This document shows positions 1-7,778 of a DNA stretch of 25,688 nucleotides, one piece after another. Source of the DNA: a virus; IMG/VR virus record IMGVR_UViG_3300032265_002353, positions 1-25,688 of that record. One strand, written 5' to 3'. The translations under genes were made by a program, and so were the position numbers. A model generated the notes under the pieces. That model saw only the letters and a program-made list of their open reading frames with translations. It was not told the origin of the DNA and searched no databases. How positions within the stretch are numbered: position 1 is the first letter of the stretch; the number at the start of each line of letters is the position of its first letter.

Positions 1-91
1 GATGACGATTTGGACGTGAACCATCAGATACTTGAGCATCAGCACCCATAACTACATTACCATTTTTACATGTGGCAACAATTGTTGTCAT
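1..91 (-). CDS. HslV/proteasome beta-type Ntn peptidase, N-terminal 30 residues (cut by window edge)
   Basis: The frame from the ATG at 91-89 is open to the window edge and encodes a start like that of HslV and proteasome beta subunits: Met followed by T-T-I-V, then N-G-N-V-V-M-G-A-D-A-Q-V-S-D-G. In that family Met or a propeptide is removed so that Thr becomes the N-terminal nucleophile. Counting the Thr after Met as 1, an Asp falls at position 17, as in active members; the catalytic Lys33 would lie outside the window. The ATG overlaps the thioredoxin stop (ATGA, 88-91), and a GAGGA ribosome site lies about 9 nt upstream. By family it would be a peptidase working with an AAA+ unfoldase, here perhaps the host's. 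HslV versus proteasome beta cannot be decided from 30 residues. Confidence 0.72.
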   Translation of the reverse strand, partial: MTTIVATCKNGNVVMGADAQVSDGSRPNRH

Positions 92-384
92 TTGCCCAAC
101 TCCTCTAATATATCTTCGGCTTTTCTGGATAAAATAGTGTTTGTGATTTTGCCCTTTTCCATGACAAAAATTTGTGGAATGCTTAATACGTTATATGATT
201 TTAACACATCTTGATCAATACTGTCAACGTCTACTAGATAGTAATTGGTATCTGGATCTATTACTGAAACCCGACCATAATGTGGCTTTAATTGTTTACA
301 TGGATTACACCATGAGGCTGTAAAATAAACTACACATTCATTTTCTGCTTGAAATTCAGACACATCATTGGTGATTTTAAGCAA
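88..384 (-). CDS. Thioredoxin-like protein
   Basis: A 98-residue protein with the thioredoxin active site W25-C26-N-P-C29 after a hydrophobic strand (CVVYFTAS), a V-D-V-D-S segment, and a conserved Ile-Pro (S-I-P-Q) matching the cis-proline opposite the active site. It should be a cytoplasmic dithiol/disulfide oxidoreductase; small phage thioredoxins may feed ribonucleotide reductase or other redox enzymes, but no reductase gene lies in this window. The start is TTG at 384-382, supported by an ideal GGAGG (391-395) 6 nt upstream. It overlaps the upstream zinc-finger gene by 8 nt and the downstream protease-like gene by 4 nt, so translation is probably coupled. Confidence 0.88.
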   Translation of the reverse strand: MLKITNDVSEFQAENECVVYFTASWCNPCKQLKPHYGRVSVIDPDTNYYLVDVDSIDQDVLKSYNVLSIPQIFVMEKGKITNTILSRKAEDILEELGK

Positions 385-1382: not shown

Positions 1383-1596
1383 ATTTGTCGCTTATTTCCC
1401 AAGTGCCATTGGGTTTTAATTCGTGACGACTTGAATATCCCCACTTATTATTTTTAAACATGCCCTTTGGATCCATGTATCCATTATTACTTGGAGACCA
1501 TTTTACAATAGTCCAACCATCCCAAAAAAATCCAAGTGCTTTGTTTTTTTCAACAAACTTATGAGCTGTATCATAATCTAGTGATACTTTAGGCAT
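1366..1596 (-). CDS. Hypothetical protein, aromatic-rich
   Basis: A 76-residue protein rich in Trp, Phe and Tyr (G-F-F-W-D-G-W-T-I-V-K-W, N-N-K-W-G-Y, G-T-W-E-I-S). It lacks cysteines and has no recognisable catalytic motif; the pattern suggests a small all-beta domain. It overlaps GroES by 8 nt upstream and WhiB by 17 nt downstream, so it is translated from the same message that starts at the promoter near 1926-1955. Confidence 0.65.
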   Translation of the reverse strand: MPKVSLDYDTAHKFVEKNKALGFFWDGWTIVKWSPSNNGYMDPKGMFKNNKWGYSSRHELKPNGTWEISDKYANLI

Positions 1597-1891
1597 TCTC
1601 TACTCCAAACAAATTTCTCCAGTTAATAAATTCATATTTGTCACCAGATTCATCTGTGACTTCTGTTCCATGATTATCAGAATAAATAACAACATCACCT
1701 TCATTTAAAGGGATTGTATGTACTTTTCCTTCTTGATCCCGCTCGCCTGGTCCAACCTTTACAATTGTTCCACGCTGTAATTCAGAATCTAATGATGCTG
1801 CAGTAAGAATTAACCCCGATTGGGTTTGAGTGTCTTTTACTTCATTCTTTTTTACTAGAATTAGACCACCAAGTGGTACTATTTTTGTCAT
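1589..1891 (-). CDS. groES: GroES-like co-chaperonin (Cpn10)
   Basis: A 100-residue protein of normal Cpn10 length. It starts I-V-P-L-G-G-L-I-L-V-K, has a flexible segment matching the mobile loop (T-Q-T-Q-S-G-L-I-L-T), the V-G-P-G-E-R turn, and the core strand G-D-V-V-I-Y-S-D-N-H-G-T-E. Cpn10 caps the GroEL cylinder; no GroEL gene is in the window, so it may work with host GroEL, as T4 gp31 does during capsid folding. Here the sequence is GroES-like rather than gp31-like. It is the first gene after the strongest promoter of the left region (TTGACA/TACAAT at 1926-1955) and has an AAAGGA ribosome site 5 nt before ATG. Confidence 0.9.
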   Translation of the reverse strand: MTKIVPLGGLILVKKNEVKDTQTQSGLILTAASLDSELQRGTIVKVGPGERDQEGKVHTIPLNEGDVVIYSDNHGTEVTDESGDKYEFINWRNLFGVENA

Positions 1892-3686: not shown

Positions 3687-4145
3687 TTACATTATAGTTG
3701 GCTTAAGGGTTGATGTCAATTGCCATTGCCAAAACGAGTGTTTATCTTGACGATCAGCTAAAAAGTTGGCAATTCCTTGTTCTTTAAGAGCTGAAGCAAC
3801 ATCAAAGCCATCTTTCAATTTATCAATAATTTGTAGGTTTGTTTTGCTTAATTCAATAAACATTTGCTCTGCTGTTAAATCAAGAGAATCATTAATTTTT
3901 AATGCACTATTTTGTTGAAGTTGTTCTAAGCCAAATGGTGCTTTAGCCTTAATCTTTCTTAAATTTTCGGCATATGCGTCAATTGAATCAAATACATCTT
4001 CATAAATCTCTAGTAGGAAAGCGTGATCTTGTTTAAAATCCCGCCCTTCAATATTCCAATGATACCCATGAGATTGGGCATAAATTTTCATTGCCATTGA
4101 TTGTAATTCTTTTAATGCGTTAACTAACTCCTGGGACGTAGCCAC
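3687..4145 (-). CDS. dps: Dps-like ferritin (DNA-protecting mini-ferritin)
   Basis: A 152-residue protein, normal for Dps. The inter-subunit ferroxidase set is present with Dps spacing: H29, H41, D56 and E60 within H-W-N-I-E-G-R-D-F, D-H-A-F-L and D-A-Y-A-E-N-L-R. Dps forms a 12-mer that oxidises and stores Fe(II) using peroxide and can coat DNA. I choose the GTG at 4145-4143 (reading M-A-T-S-Q) because an AAGGAG site lies exactly 7 nt upstream; in-frame ATGs at 4151 and 4166 are too close to, or upstream of, that site. The gene overlaps the upstream membrane-protein gene by 26 nt. A phage Dps could limit oxidative damage in infected cells or protect packaged or replicating DNA (inference). 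Confidence 0.88.
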   Translation of the reverse strand: MATSQELVNALKELQSMAMKIYAQSHGYHWNIEGRDFKQDHAFLLEIYEDVFDSIDAYAENLRKIKAKAPFGLEQLQQNSALKINDSLDLTAEQMFIELSKTNLQIIDKLKDGFDVASALKEQGIANFLADRQDKHSFWQWQLTSTLKPTIM

Positions 4146-4446
4146 TACCATTCTCCTTGTCAACATGTTGATTACCGTGTACTTTTTTTAACATTTCCAC
4201 TAGTATTTGTTCATCAGATTTTTGAGGATCATTGCCAACATATAATGCCCCAATAGTTTTTTTATCTTCCATTCTTTGGCTTCCTTCACCAAGCAATATA
4301 AGCAACATTGCTGTAGGAATTAAAAGTCCTGTAGGAAAACCTTTAAAATAAATAGCCGTATTTAATACAATAGCAGAAATATAACCAGATACTCTGGCAG
4401 GATATTTCTGAATATAAAAAGATATATGGGCTTTAAAATTATTCAT
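4120..4446 (-). CDS. Small membrane protein with two TM segments (holin-like candidate)
   Basis: A 108-residue protein: a short amphipathic N-terminus, two hydrophobic segments at about residues 19-36 and 38-54 (S-G-Y-I-S-A-I-V-L-N-T-A-I-Y-F and F-P-T-G-L-L-I-P-T-A-M-L-L-I-L-L), then a charged cytoplasmic tail of about 50 residues. Size and topology fit a class II holin, but no endolysin lies next to it, so the holin label is only a candidate. The start codon is 7 nt after a TATAAT box (4454-4459), leaving almost no leader, which suggests a leaderless message. Confidence 0.65.
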   Translation of the reverse strand: MNNFKAHISFYIQKYPARVSGYISAIVLNTAIYFKGFPTGLLIPTAMLLILLGEGSQRMEDKKTIGALYVGNDPQKSDEQILVEMLKKVHGNQHVDKENGSGYVPGVS

Positions 4447-4612: not shown

Positions 4613-4635
4613 ACCCCGCCCATAATAGGCGGGGT
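4613..4635 (-). terminator. GC-rich hairpin between hsp20 and the small basic gene
   Basis: ACCCCGCC, loop TATTATG, GGCGGGGT: eight perfect pairs in otherwise AT-rich DNA, followed on the minus strand by TTTCTAAC. It lies just beyond the hsp20 stop, so it can act as its terminator. It also begins where transcripts from the promoter at 4642-4671 would start, so it may double as a 5' protective stem or attenuator for the small basic gene. Confidence 0.65.
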
Positions 4636-4671: not shown

Positions 4672-5084
4672 GGCTTGTGTTCTTCTGGTATTTCTTTTTC
4701 AATTTTAATGGTCAACAGACCATTTTCAAGTGAAGCAGATTTAACCAACATGTATTCACCTAGAGTGAATGTTTGTGTAAAATTGCGTCCTGCAATTCCT
4801 TTATGTAGAAAATCTGAATCTTCATCATTTTCTCTATCACTTTTGATAATTAATGTATCTTTATCTACAGTAATATCAAGATCTTCACGATCATATCCCG
4901 CAACAGCCAACTCAACAATATAATTGTCTTCGTCAACCTTTTTTACATTATATGGGGGAAATGAAGATGTTGTTTTTTTATTTGATTCCCATCTTACAAA
5001 TTGATCATTAAACCCCAAAAAAAATGGGTCATTAAAAATAGATTGAATTTGTGCAAATGGATCTTTATATACTAGATGTGTCAT
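4650..5084 (-). CDS. hsp20: IbpA-like small heat-shock protein (Hsp20)
   Basis: A 144-residue class A small heat-shock protein. After a phenylalanine-rich N-terminus (F-N-D-P-F-F-L-G-F-N) comes F-P-P-Y-N-V, then the alpha-crystallin domain (about residues 42-130) with E-L-A-V-A-G-Y, G-I-A-G-R-N-F and L-E-N-G-L-L-T-I, and a tail I-P-E-E-H-K-P-R-Q-I-K-I-K carrying the I-x-I oligomerisation motif. The PPYN, GIAxRNF and IPExxKPRxIxI signatures are those of E. coli IbpA/IbpB. It should hold unfolding proteins for refolding by ATP-dependent chaperones. Its leader carries a ROSE-like hairpin over the ribosome site, an arrangement known for ibpA-type genes. Hsp20 genes also occur in cyanophages. Confidence 0.93.
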   Translation of the reverse strand: MTHLVYKDPFAQIQSIFNDPFFLGFNDQFVRWESNKKTTSSFPPYNVKKVDEDNYIVELAVAGYDREDLDITVDKDTLIIKSDRENDEDSDFLHKGIAGRNFTQTFTLGEYMLVKSASLENGLLTIKIEKEIPEEHKPRQIKIK

Positions 5085-5087
5085 TTT

Positions 5088-5141
5088 ACTTAGCTCCTTT
5101 TCAGCAAGTTAGTTAGATTGGCACTCCCCGAAGGCAAGTGC
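5088..5141 (-). promoter_or_regulatory. ROSE-like RNA thermometer candidate in the hsp20 leader
   Basis: The predicted leader (about 5142-5085) folds into two hairpins. The 5' one (5141-5121) is GCACTTGCC, loop TTCG, GGGAGTGC: eight pairs with a bulged G and a C(UUCG)G tetraloop. The 3' one (5109-5088) pairs ACTT with AAGT and GCT with AGC, placing AAGGAG (5099-5094) in the loop and stem opposite TTGCT. U-U/C-G-C-U facing the Shine-Dalgarno sequence is the signature of ROSE elements, which melt on heating and repress translation at low temperature, typically before ibpA-type hsp20 genes. The pairing is seen directly; temperature response is inference. Confidence 0.6.
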
Positions 5142-5148
5142 TAAATAT

Positions 5149-5157
5149 ATTATATCA
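5149..5157 (-). promoter_or_regulatory. Extended -10 promoter of hsp20
   Basis: TGATATAAT on the minus strand is a full extended -10 (TG-n-TATAAT). No good -35 is visible, which extended -10 promoters tolerate. The predicted start near 5142 puts the UUCG hairpin exactly at the 5' end of the message. It lies between the stop of the gene ending at 5162 and the hsp20 leader. Confidence 0.65.
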
Positions 5158-7266: not shown

Positions 7267-7269
7267 TTG

Positions 7270-7341
7270 CTTCCCGTCATGGATTCGGACCACGATTCTC
7301 GCCTCCAAAGGGCGATGTCCTGCCAGTTGGACGAACGGGAA
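7270..7341 (-). tRNA. tRNA-Gln (TTG)
   Basis: A full cloverleaf: acceptor TTCCCGT/ACGGGAA, D stem GTCC/GGAC, anticodon stem TCGCC/GGCGA with loop CTTTGGA (anticodon TTG), T stem CGTGG/CCATG with loop TCCGAAT, discriminator G as usual for tRNA-Gln. CCA is not encoded (CAA follows). One nt separates it from the CCA end of tRNA-Met. Confidence 0.93.
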
Positions 7342-7342
7342 T

Positions 7343-7419
7343 TGGTGAGGCAGGTCAGATTTGAACTGACGATTACCGAATTATGAGTTCGGGGCTTTGA
7401 CCAACTAAGCTACTGCCTC
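7343..7419 (-). tRNA. tRNA with CAT anticodon (elongator Met, or Ile if lysidinylated)
   Basis: Acceptor GAGGCAG/CTGCCTC, D stem GCTT/AAGC, anticodon stem CCGAA/TTCGG with loop CTCATAA (CAT), T stem GTCAG/CTGAC with loop TTCAAAT, discriminator A, and CCA encoded (7345-7343). The G1-C72 pair and the non-GGG anticodon stem exclude the initiator. Whether C34 becomes lysidine, making it Ile-AUA, cannot be seen. Confidence 0.92.
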
Positions 7420-7425
7420 TTAAAT

Positions 7426-7665
7426 TTAATTAGCAGAGCCTATTGGTTTATTTTGTATTAGTTTTTCTCTCTCATCAATAATTTCATATGAGAATTTAAT
7501 TAATGCTGCTTCATGCTTTGCATAATGATGACCACAAAACATAAGATCACCAGAAACACCTTTTACTAGAACGTAGGCTTGAGAATTGCAAGAATCACAA
7601 CGATCTGCAACTTTAAGAACATATTCTTTTTGAATTTCTTTTTCTTCTAATTTCTCAGCCATCAT
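7426..7665 (-). CDS. DUF7455-like zinc protein
   Basis: A 79-residue protein from the chosen start. The core V-A-D-R-C-D-S-C-N-S-Q-A-Y-V-L-V then G-D-L-M-F-C-G-H-H-Y-A-K-H matches the DUF7455 pattern of Actinobacteria (A-D-R-C-D-R-C-x-A-x-A, then L-L-F-C-x-H-H), with C-x2-C and C-x-H-H as likely zinc ligands. The function of this family is not known to me. A TATAAT box ends at 7672, directly before an ATG at 7671, so that ATG cannot be in the transcript; the ATG at 7665 lies 6 nt after the box and fits a leaderless start. The ATG at 7662 is an alternative. The gene lies between tRNA-Asn and tRNA-Met. Confidence 0.75.
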   Translation of the reverse strand: MMAEKLEEKEIQKEYVLKVADRCDSCNSQAYVLVKGVSGDLMFCGHHYAKHEAALIKFSYEIIDEREKLIQNKPIGSAN

Positions 7666-7671
7666 ATTCAT

Positions 7672-7677
7672 ATTATA
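7672..7677 (-). promoter_or_regulatory. -10 box for leaderless DUF7455-like gene and tRNAs
   Basis: TATAAT 6 nt before the ATG at 7665, in the context G-A-G-TATAAT. It lies 28 nt past the end of tRNA-Asn and would drive the DUF7455-like gene plus the Met and Gln tRNAs and the structured RNA. There is no ribosome site and no clear -35. Confidence 0.5.
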
Positions 7678-7705
7678 CTCTTTCTATTGGTTGGTTAATA
7701 ATTTG

Positions 7706-7778
7706 CTGGGGTGGTAGGACTCGGACCTACGACATTCCGATTAACAGTCGGACGCTCTGCCAGCTGAGCTACACCCCA
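7706..7778 (-). tRNA. tRNA-Asn (GTT)
   Basis: Acceptor TGGGGTG/CACCCCA, D stem GCTC/GAGC, anticodon stem TCCGA/TCGGA with loop CTGTTAA (GTT), T stem GTAGG/CCTAC with loop TCCGAGT, discriminator G. CCA is not encoded. It starts 7 nt past the stop of the upstream protein gene, so it is probably processed from a shared transcript. Confidence 0.95.

Follow-up and report, generated by a model that had tools for sequence, protein, structure and literature searches.

A predicted short ROSE variant, widespread among phages, in the hsp20 leader of an actinophage

The short ROSE elements of Pseudomonas ibpA genes are proven RNA thermometers, in which a leader of 61–62 nt folds into two hairpins; warming melts hairpin II but leaves hairpin I intact, and the element becomes locked in the off state when one G is deleted and a U is replaced by C (Krajewski et al. 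2013, PMC3669281). A second layer of control is known from the IbpA proteins of E. coli, Cedecea, and Vibrio, which repress their own ROSE-bearing mRNA via Arg93 and the aromatic residue 34 (PMC10474464). The phage RNA thermometers named in open-access papers are lambda cIII, the fourU element of SP-beta blyA, and a fourU element of a Caudoviricetes sigma-70 gene (PMC10586365, PMC11182007). Our search of open-access journal papers turned up no ROSE element described for any phage, in keeping with the original prediction for this locus, which knew of none described in an actinophage; papers on cyanophage Hsp20 make no mention of a thermometer or an untranslated region. The hsp20 gene itself is a core gene of T4-like cyanophages.

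The stretch of DNA analyzed here (the window; 25,688 nt of IMG/VR record IMGVR_UViG_3300032265_002353) derives from an actinophage, given the presence of a WhiB gene and a terminase that shares ~66% identity with its counterparts in Streptomyces phages, e.g., Gilson. Every part of the promoter–leader–hsp20 locus lies on the minus strand of the window (Table 1). The extended −10 box, the UUCG-capped hairpin, and the IbpA-like hsp20 of the original prediction were all recovered, the protein sharing 41% identity with Pseudomonas IbpA across 121 residues, and the leader, earlier put at roughly 57 nt, measures 58 nt when counted from our putative transcription start, which probably lies at or just 5′ of hairpin I (~5142). 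A TATAAT-like or TATAAATA-like box occupies the promoter position in most of 187 leaders. Given the terminator-like stem that follows the gene, hsp20 looks monocistronic, served by a promoter and leader of its own. Hairpin I itself was ruled out as a terminator, as no T-run follows it. We also noted a cluster of stress genes around hsp20, namely a WhiB-like regulator, a ferritin/Dps-like protein, and a thioredoxin (1068–1382, 3687–4166, and 88–384, minus strand), together with three tRNA genes (Gln, Met, Asn; 7269–7778, minus strand) and a second chaperone gene, a GroES-like Cpn10 (1589–1891, minus strand; Pfam 6.7e-18). Elsewhere, on contig L164, a GroES-like gene carries TAACTTGCTGAAAGGAG 5′ of its start and is without hairpin I.

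Table 1. Positions of the hsp20 locus features in the window, and of the leaders of the ~75-aa protein family in other records
Feature	Position	Strand	Description and basis
Extended −10, TGATATAAT	5157–5149	−	6–7 nt upstream of hairpin I; from sequence
Leader, 58 nt counted from putative start	5142–5085	−	Two-hairpin leader; AUG at 5084
Hairpin I, GCACUUGCC-UUCG-GGGAGUGC, bulged G5135	5141–5121	−	Covariation and sequence
Anti-SD CUUGCU, U(U/C)GCU hallmark, bulged G5105	5108–5103	−	Sequence and relatives
Shine-Dalgarno (SD) AAGGAG, facing anti-SD (hairpin II, GAAA loop)	5099–5094	−	Sequence
Shifted hairpin II register, ACUUGCU (5109–5103) with AGCUAAGU (5095–5088)	5109–5088	−	Nearest-neighbour energies
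hsp20, 144 aa, IbpA-like small heat-shock protein	5084–4650	−	Pfam HSP20 1.3e-18; PHROG 432 2.5e-39
Terminator-like G+C-rich stem directly 3′ of hsp20	4613–4635	unassigned	Pattern scan; near-palindromic, called on + with a T-run
Leaders of the ~75-aa family	L444–L523 (about 1001–1222), L071, L360 (G005:28908)		

The same type of leader precedes the small heat-shock genes of hundreds of other phages. To sample these, hsp20 genes were gathered by protein similarity alone, disregarding their leaders and including cultured phages, which yielded 145 distinct leaders. The motif [C/T]U[U/C]GCU..GGAG was present in the last 60 nt of 139 of them, and TYGCT stood 5′ of the SD in 140, against ~5.7 in shuffles. 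Cyanophages, pelagiphages, a methylophage, an agrobacterial phage, and actinophages are all represented; the Vibrio phage PWH3a is without this leader. Two scans blind to the gene gave a matching picture. The pattern TAACTYGCT..AGGAG..ATG, run over IMG/VR without hsp20 information, opened an hsp20 frame in 102 of 120 cases among the matches listed. A second pattern, requiring hairpin I, the anti-SD, and the SD and no start codon, fell before hsp20 in at least 99 of the 120 matches listed and before a single family of small proteins in 11, the other 10 being too short or unplaced (mostly frames running off the available sequence). A ROSE-type leader is the rule for phage hsp20, not the exception.

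Covariation among hsp20 leaders, proposed at the outset as a means of support, was found in hairpin I. In a structure-blind MAFFT alignment of 40 leaders (A2), 99.3% of the hairpin I cells were paired and 61 cells held double changes (13.9 in shuffles), spread over five of the seven pairs, and the signal dropped sharply when the alignment was slid by one column. The lower stem varies freely, while the core [U/C]GCC-N4-GGG and its unpaired G are kept. Judged from these alignments, the leader has the stable, covarying hairpin I of the short ROSE kind. We did note that both hairpins of the window (5121–5141 and 5094–5108, minus strand) share a common motif, UGCY-loop-RGG with an unpaired G.

Taken alone, the window leader is weak evidence, with an MFE z of only −1.8 and a different predicted fold for a transcript starting 6 nt earlier, and the case against chance rests on its relatives. 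A chance resemblance, or one due to recent descent only, would fit this unremarkable single-sequence fold and is refuted by the 145 distinct leaders, the covariation, the recovery of hsp20 by gene-blind patterns, and the reciprocal match with Pseudomonas ROSE described below, so that its probability is practically nil. We give hardly more credence to a reading of TYGCTTA as a DNA-level box of a T4 MotA-like middle promoter in place of an RNA structure. The TTGCTTA of many leaders does resemble the T4 MotA box, TGCTTtA (PMC9004378); however, many others read CTCGCT or TTGCTGAAA, the box abuts the SD on its 5′ side, which would leave transcripts without an SD, hairpin I covaries at the RNA level, and Pseudomonas RNAs share both parts. 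As a candidate T4 MotA-box middle promoter the locus was rejected, as the motif does not stand as a TGCTT box upstream of a −10 and of the RNA start.

In hairpin II, the original prediction had set UUGCU opposite AAGGAG, and this pairing does exist in the window, although it is not the nearest-neighbour optimum there, which is a shifted register. The ROSE-register pairs are C5108-G5094, U5107-A5095, U5106-G5096, C5104-G5097, and U5103-A5098, with G5105 bulged, such that the anti-SD pairs with AGGAG (5098–5094) around an unpaired G as in short ROSE elements. In a model-fitted alignment, 100% of the cells of this SD/anti-SD hairpin were paired in the ROSE register, and an A lies directly 5′ of GGAG in 143 of 144 distinct hsp20 leaders. 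The C variant of the anti-SD (U>C) occurs in three members of the window's clade and in 60 of the 144. Given the SD is fixed by the ribosome, the anti-SD can hardly covary, and the compensatory changes also proposed as a check came out in two parts: among close relatives, variation in the 5094–5108 pairing is limited to U-G/C-G, whereas leaders without the plain motif regain the same hairpin and unpaired G through matched changes. These are the cyanophage S-TIM54, in which CCACGCUU pairs with AAGGUGG, and the leaders L260 and L263, in which AGACGCU has extended partners (AGACGCUU paired with AGGAGGUCU in L263).

A departure is predicted in the window's own clade, where CUAAGU follows the SD and ACUUGCU can pair instead with AGC-U-AAGU. 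This shifted register has a 7-nt loop that includes AAAAGG and leaves part of the SD (AGG) unpaired, and for hairpin II of the window at 37 °C its nearest-neighbour energy is −4.0 kcal/mol, vs. +0.9 kcal/mol for the ROSE register. Three of the 36 distinct leaders of the clade, each with a different hairpin I sequence, carry a linked change of U>C plus the loss of the bulged U, which keeps the shifted register at −3.6 (single changes would give −1.8 or −7.8). The shifted register thus seems to be under selection, since the linked double change maintains its energy; by these computed energies, the window element may have two competing hairpin II states, and the opening point of hairpin II may have been retuned in this clade. 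Leaders from outside the clade are unable to adopt the shifted register, and a representative one folds into the ROSE register.

These features of the clade bear on whether the leader is a switch at all, given that it might be conserved simply for mRNA stability and efficient translation, hairpin I guarding the 5′ end and, for the window's clade, the loop of the shifted hairpin II displaying the SD. The preference for the shifted register there and its retention by the linked double change agree with such a role, as do the conservation that extends past the start codon into the MTHL codons and the lack of a known sensing role for hairpin I (PMC3669281). Outside the clade, however, UYGCU is near-invariant though the shifted register is impossible, and the SD is predicted to be mostly paired; moreover, a mere stabilizer would have no need of the ROSE hallmark, a motif with a bulged G set against the SD. 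We consider a leader without a switch improbable. Regarding the gene start, the leader and first hsp20 codons (ATGACACATCTA) are conserved within the window's clade (L001–L047), and the N-terminal codons that follow differ in length and sequence, as if the leader plus gene start behaved like a recombining unit.

The covariance search with the Rfam ROSE models suggested by the original prediction gave matches below threshold that fall exactly on the leaders of relatives, and only a marginal one in the window. A search at gathering cut-offs returned only tRNAs, and one covering 400 nt of the window with the threshold relaxed to E ≤ 10 returned no ROSE family. Run on the window leader, ROSE_3 scored 10 bits (E 0.38; cut-off 43), the best and only match of its record, and the best phage leaders reached 34–35 bits, none attaining the gathering score of 43. 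ROSE_3 matched 12 of 17 phage genomes, and in 11 of the 12 the best match genome-wide was on the element (ten hsp20 leaders and one small-protein leader). Since weak ROSE_3 matches (E ≤ 1) were also seen in six of 14 control genomes, only the position of such matches counts as evidence. None of the other Rfam ROSE families matched any phage leader scanned.

In the opposite direction, R1, a covariance model built from phage leaders only, matched the ibpA leaders of Pseudomonas at precisely the expected position in 18 of 20 cases; when ROSE_3 was run on six Pseudomonas-type loci, five scored 56–73 bits. In one Pseudomonas leader (GUACGCGAUGCCGAAGUCGGGUCGCGC..CCUCGCUGAUUUUCAGGAG), the core, the unpaired G, and the motif are as in the phages. 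A second model, R2, drew on 12 phages, none from the window's clade, and gave one significant match in the 25.7-kb window (5144–5094, minus strand; 30.4 bits, E 1.8e-7), the next best scoring 5 bits. The relation between phage leaders and ROSE_3 is therefore detectable at the profile level in both directions. On this basis, we regard the window leader as a putative short-ROSE variant that falls outside curated ROSE_3 membership, given that no phage leader reaches the Rfam cut-off.

Computed folding was less informative with regard to temperature. In the window's clade, the predicted unpaired fraction of the SD is ~0.6 and flat from 5 to 55 °C, and the temperature response of the window leader is uncertain, as the shifted register leaves part of the SD looped at every temperature. 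In the other phages, the predicted fraction rises from 0.18 to 0.36 over 5–55 °C, and scrambling the anti-SD of leaders outside the clade raises it to 0.43, vs. 0.18 intact (15 °C). The proven Pseudomonas type, for its part, goes from 0.12 at 5 °C to only 0.21 at 45 °C and 0.27 at 55 °C; given that a type known to melt opens so little in the model, the energy model cannot settle thermosensing for any leader, and we gave its melting curves no weight for function, as they do not separate proven thermometers from the rest. Thermosensing by the phage leader is something we only infer. With regard to the thermometer first proposed, what stands is that an actinophage carries a ROSE-type leader in front of an IbpA-like hsp20; the predicted optimum fold of the window leader has no temperature dependence.

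Our preferred reading builds on the observed architecture, on hairpin I and its covarying pairs, on an anti-SD that hardly varies and keeps an unpaired G, on the association with hsp20, and on the reciprocal ROSE_3 match, and we hold it with reasonable, though not full, confidence: a phage-borne short ROSE-type element in which hairpin II restrains translation and warming, or an equivalent disturbance, releases Hsp20. A phage promoter, not a heat-shock promoter, would make an mRNA that starts with the stable hairpin I; U(U/C)GCU of hairpin II would pair imperfectly with the SD and hold translation back, and warming or its equivalent would open hairpin II and free Hsp20 synthesis. Given that the phages use TATAAT-like or TATAAATA-like boxes, unlike Pseudomonas, the RNA would be the sole heat-linked step. 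That the leader represses translation in vivo, melts as temperature rises, and benefits the phage are parts of this reading that we infer.

The same leader could instead serve as a feedback or aggregation sensor, with phage Hsp20 binding its own leader and repressing translation, the hairpins acting as the binding platform and temperature being secondary or irrelevant; late in infection, misfolded protein would soak up Hsp20 and lift the repression. IbpA self-repression provides the precedent (PMC10474464), and the window Hsp20 has equivalents of both key residues in Arg100 (Arg93 of E. coli IbpA) and the aromatic Phe42, which precedes PPYN. The Arg is found in 67 of 72 distinct phage motifs, though an Arg at this position is common in small heat-shock proteins, and T4-late-like TATAAATA boxes precede many leaders. 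However, the equivalents of Arg97/Lys98, which E. coli IbpA needs, are Gln104/Thr105 in the window Hsp20, and the second target of the element (below) is not a small heat-shock protein. We see feedback as a live, though less likely, alternative to the short ROSE-type switch.

This second target is a family of ~75-aa proteins with a Q-x-x-K..KP..Q pattern, probably helical, for which no Pfam, PHROG, or NCBIfam family was matched and, for one member, no cultured-phage match was found. The ROSE-like leader motif is present in all 45 distinct leaders of these relatives, nearly all with a recognizable hairpin I, and in phage G005 both hsp20 and the ~75-aa gene carry the element. The leader probably marks the ~75-aa gene as a partner in protein folding. 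In G001, a phage with an hsp20 element, we also noted a second element (L361, 16190–16240) before the gene of a 63-aa protein (MSYIQHFSTQELLNN...), possibly a third target. Speculatively, and in our view improbably as a whole, tailed phages of unrelated hosts could share a two-gene ROSE regulon (hsp20 and the ~75-aa helical protein) run from phage promoters, with hairpin II answering to Hsp20 occupancy as much as to temperature and timing chaperone supply to capsid assembly.

By its sequence features, the element is best described as a short ROSE variant that is spread across phages and here extends to an actinophage, and RNA folding may be a common means by which phages limit chaperone supply. 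A leader belonging to the bacterial thermometer class that has received most study is here detached from heat-shock transcription and occurs in a phage whose hosts are Gram-positive; the purpose of Hsp20 in phages and the timing of its synthesis become approachable via the leader, the natural U/C variants at one position matching mutations already studied in Pseudomonas. Among known systems, the Pseudomonas ibpA ROSE (RF02523, ROSE_3) is alike in its ~60-nt leader, two hairpins, and small heat-shock gene downstream, in the AUGCC-loop-GGGU core and unpaired G of hairpin I, and in the U(U/C)GCU set against the SD with an unpaired G in hairpin II. It differs in its heat-shock promoter, where phage leaders use TATAAT or TATAAATA-like promoters, and in the seven pairs of its hairpin II, vs. 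five in the window; the phage leaders, in turn, have mostly 4-nt hairpin I loops, a second, non-chaperone target, and, in the window's clade, the shifted-register option. The classical ROSE elements of Bradyrhizobium hspA and of ibpA in E. coli and Salmonella likewise hold U(U/C)GCU and the SD in a 3′ hairpin before a small heat-shock gene (PMC3669281) but have three to four hairpins, compared to two in the window leader. The self-repressing IbpA 5′ UTR (PMC10474464) shares the ROSE-bearing mRNA and the two key residues and differs in two cationic residues absent from the window Hsp20. Finally, the known phage thermometers share a temperature-linked RNA structure before a phage gene, a link that would be presumptive for the window leader, but belong to other fold classes and genes in single or few phages, none being ROSE-type and none preceding hsp20.
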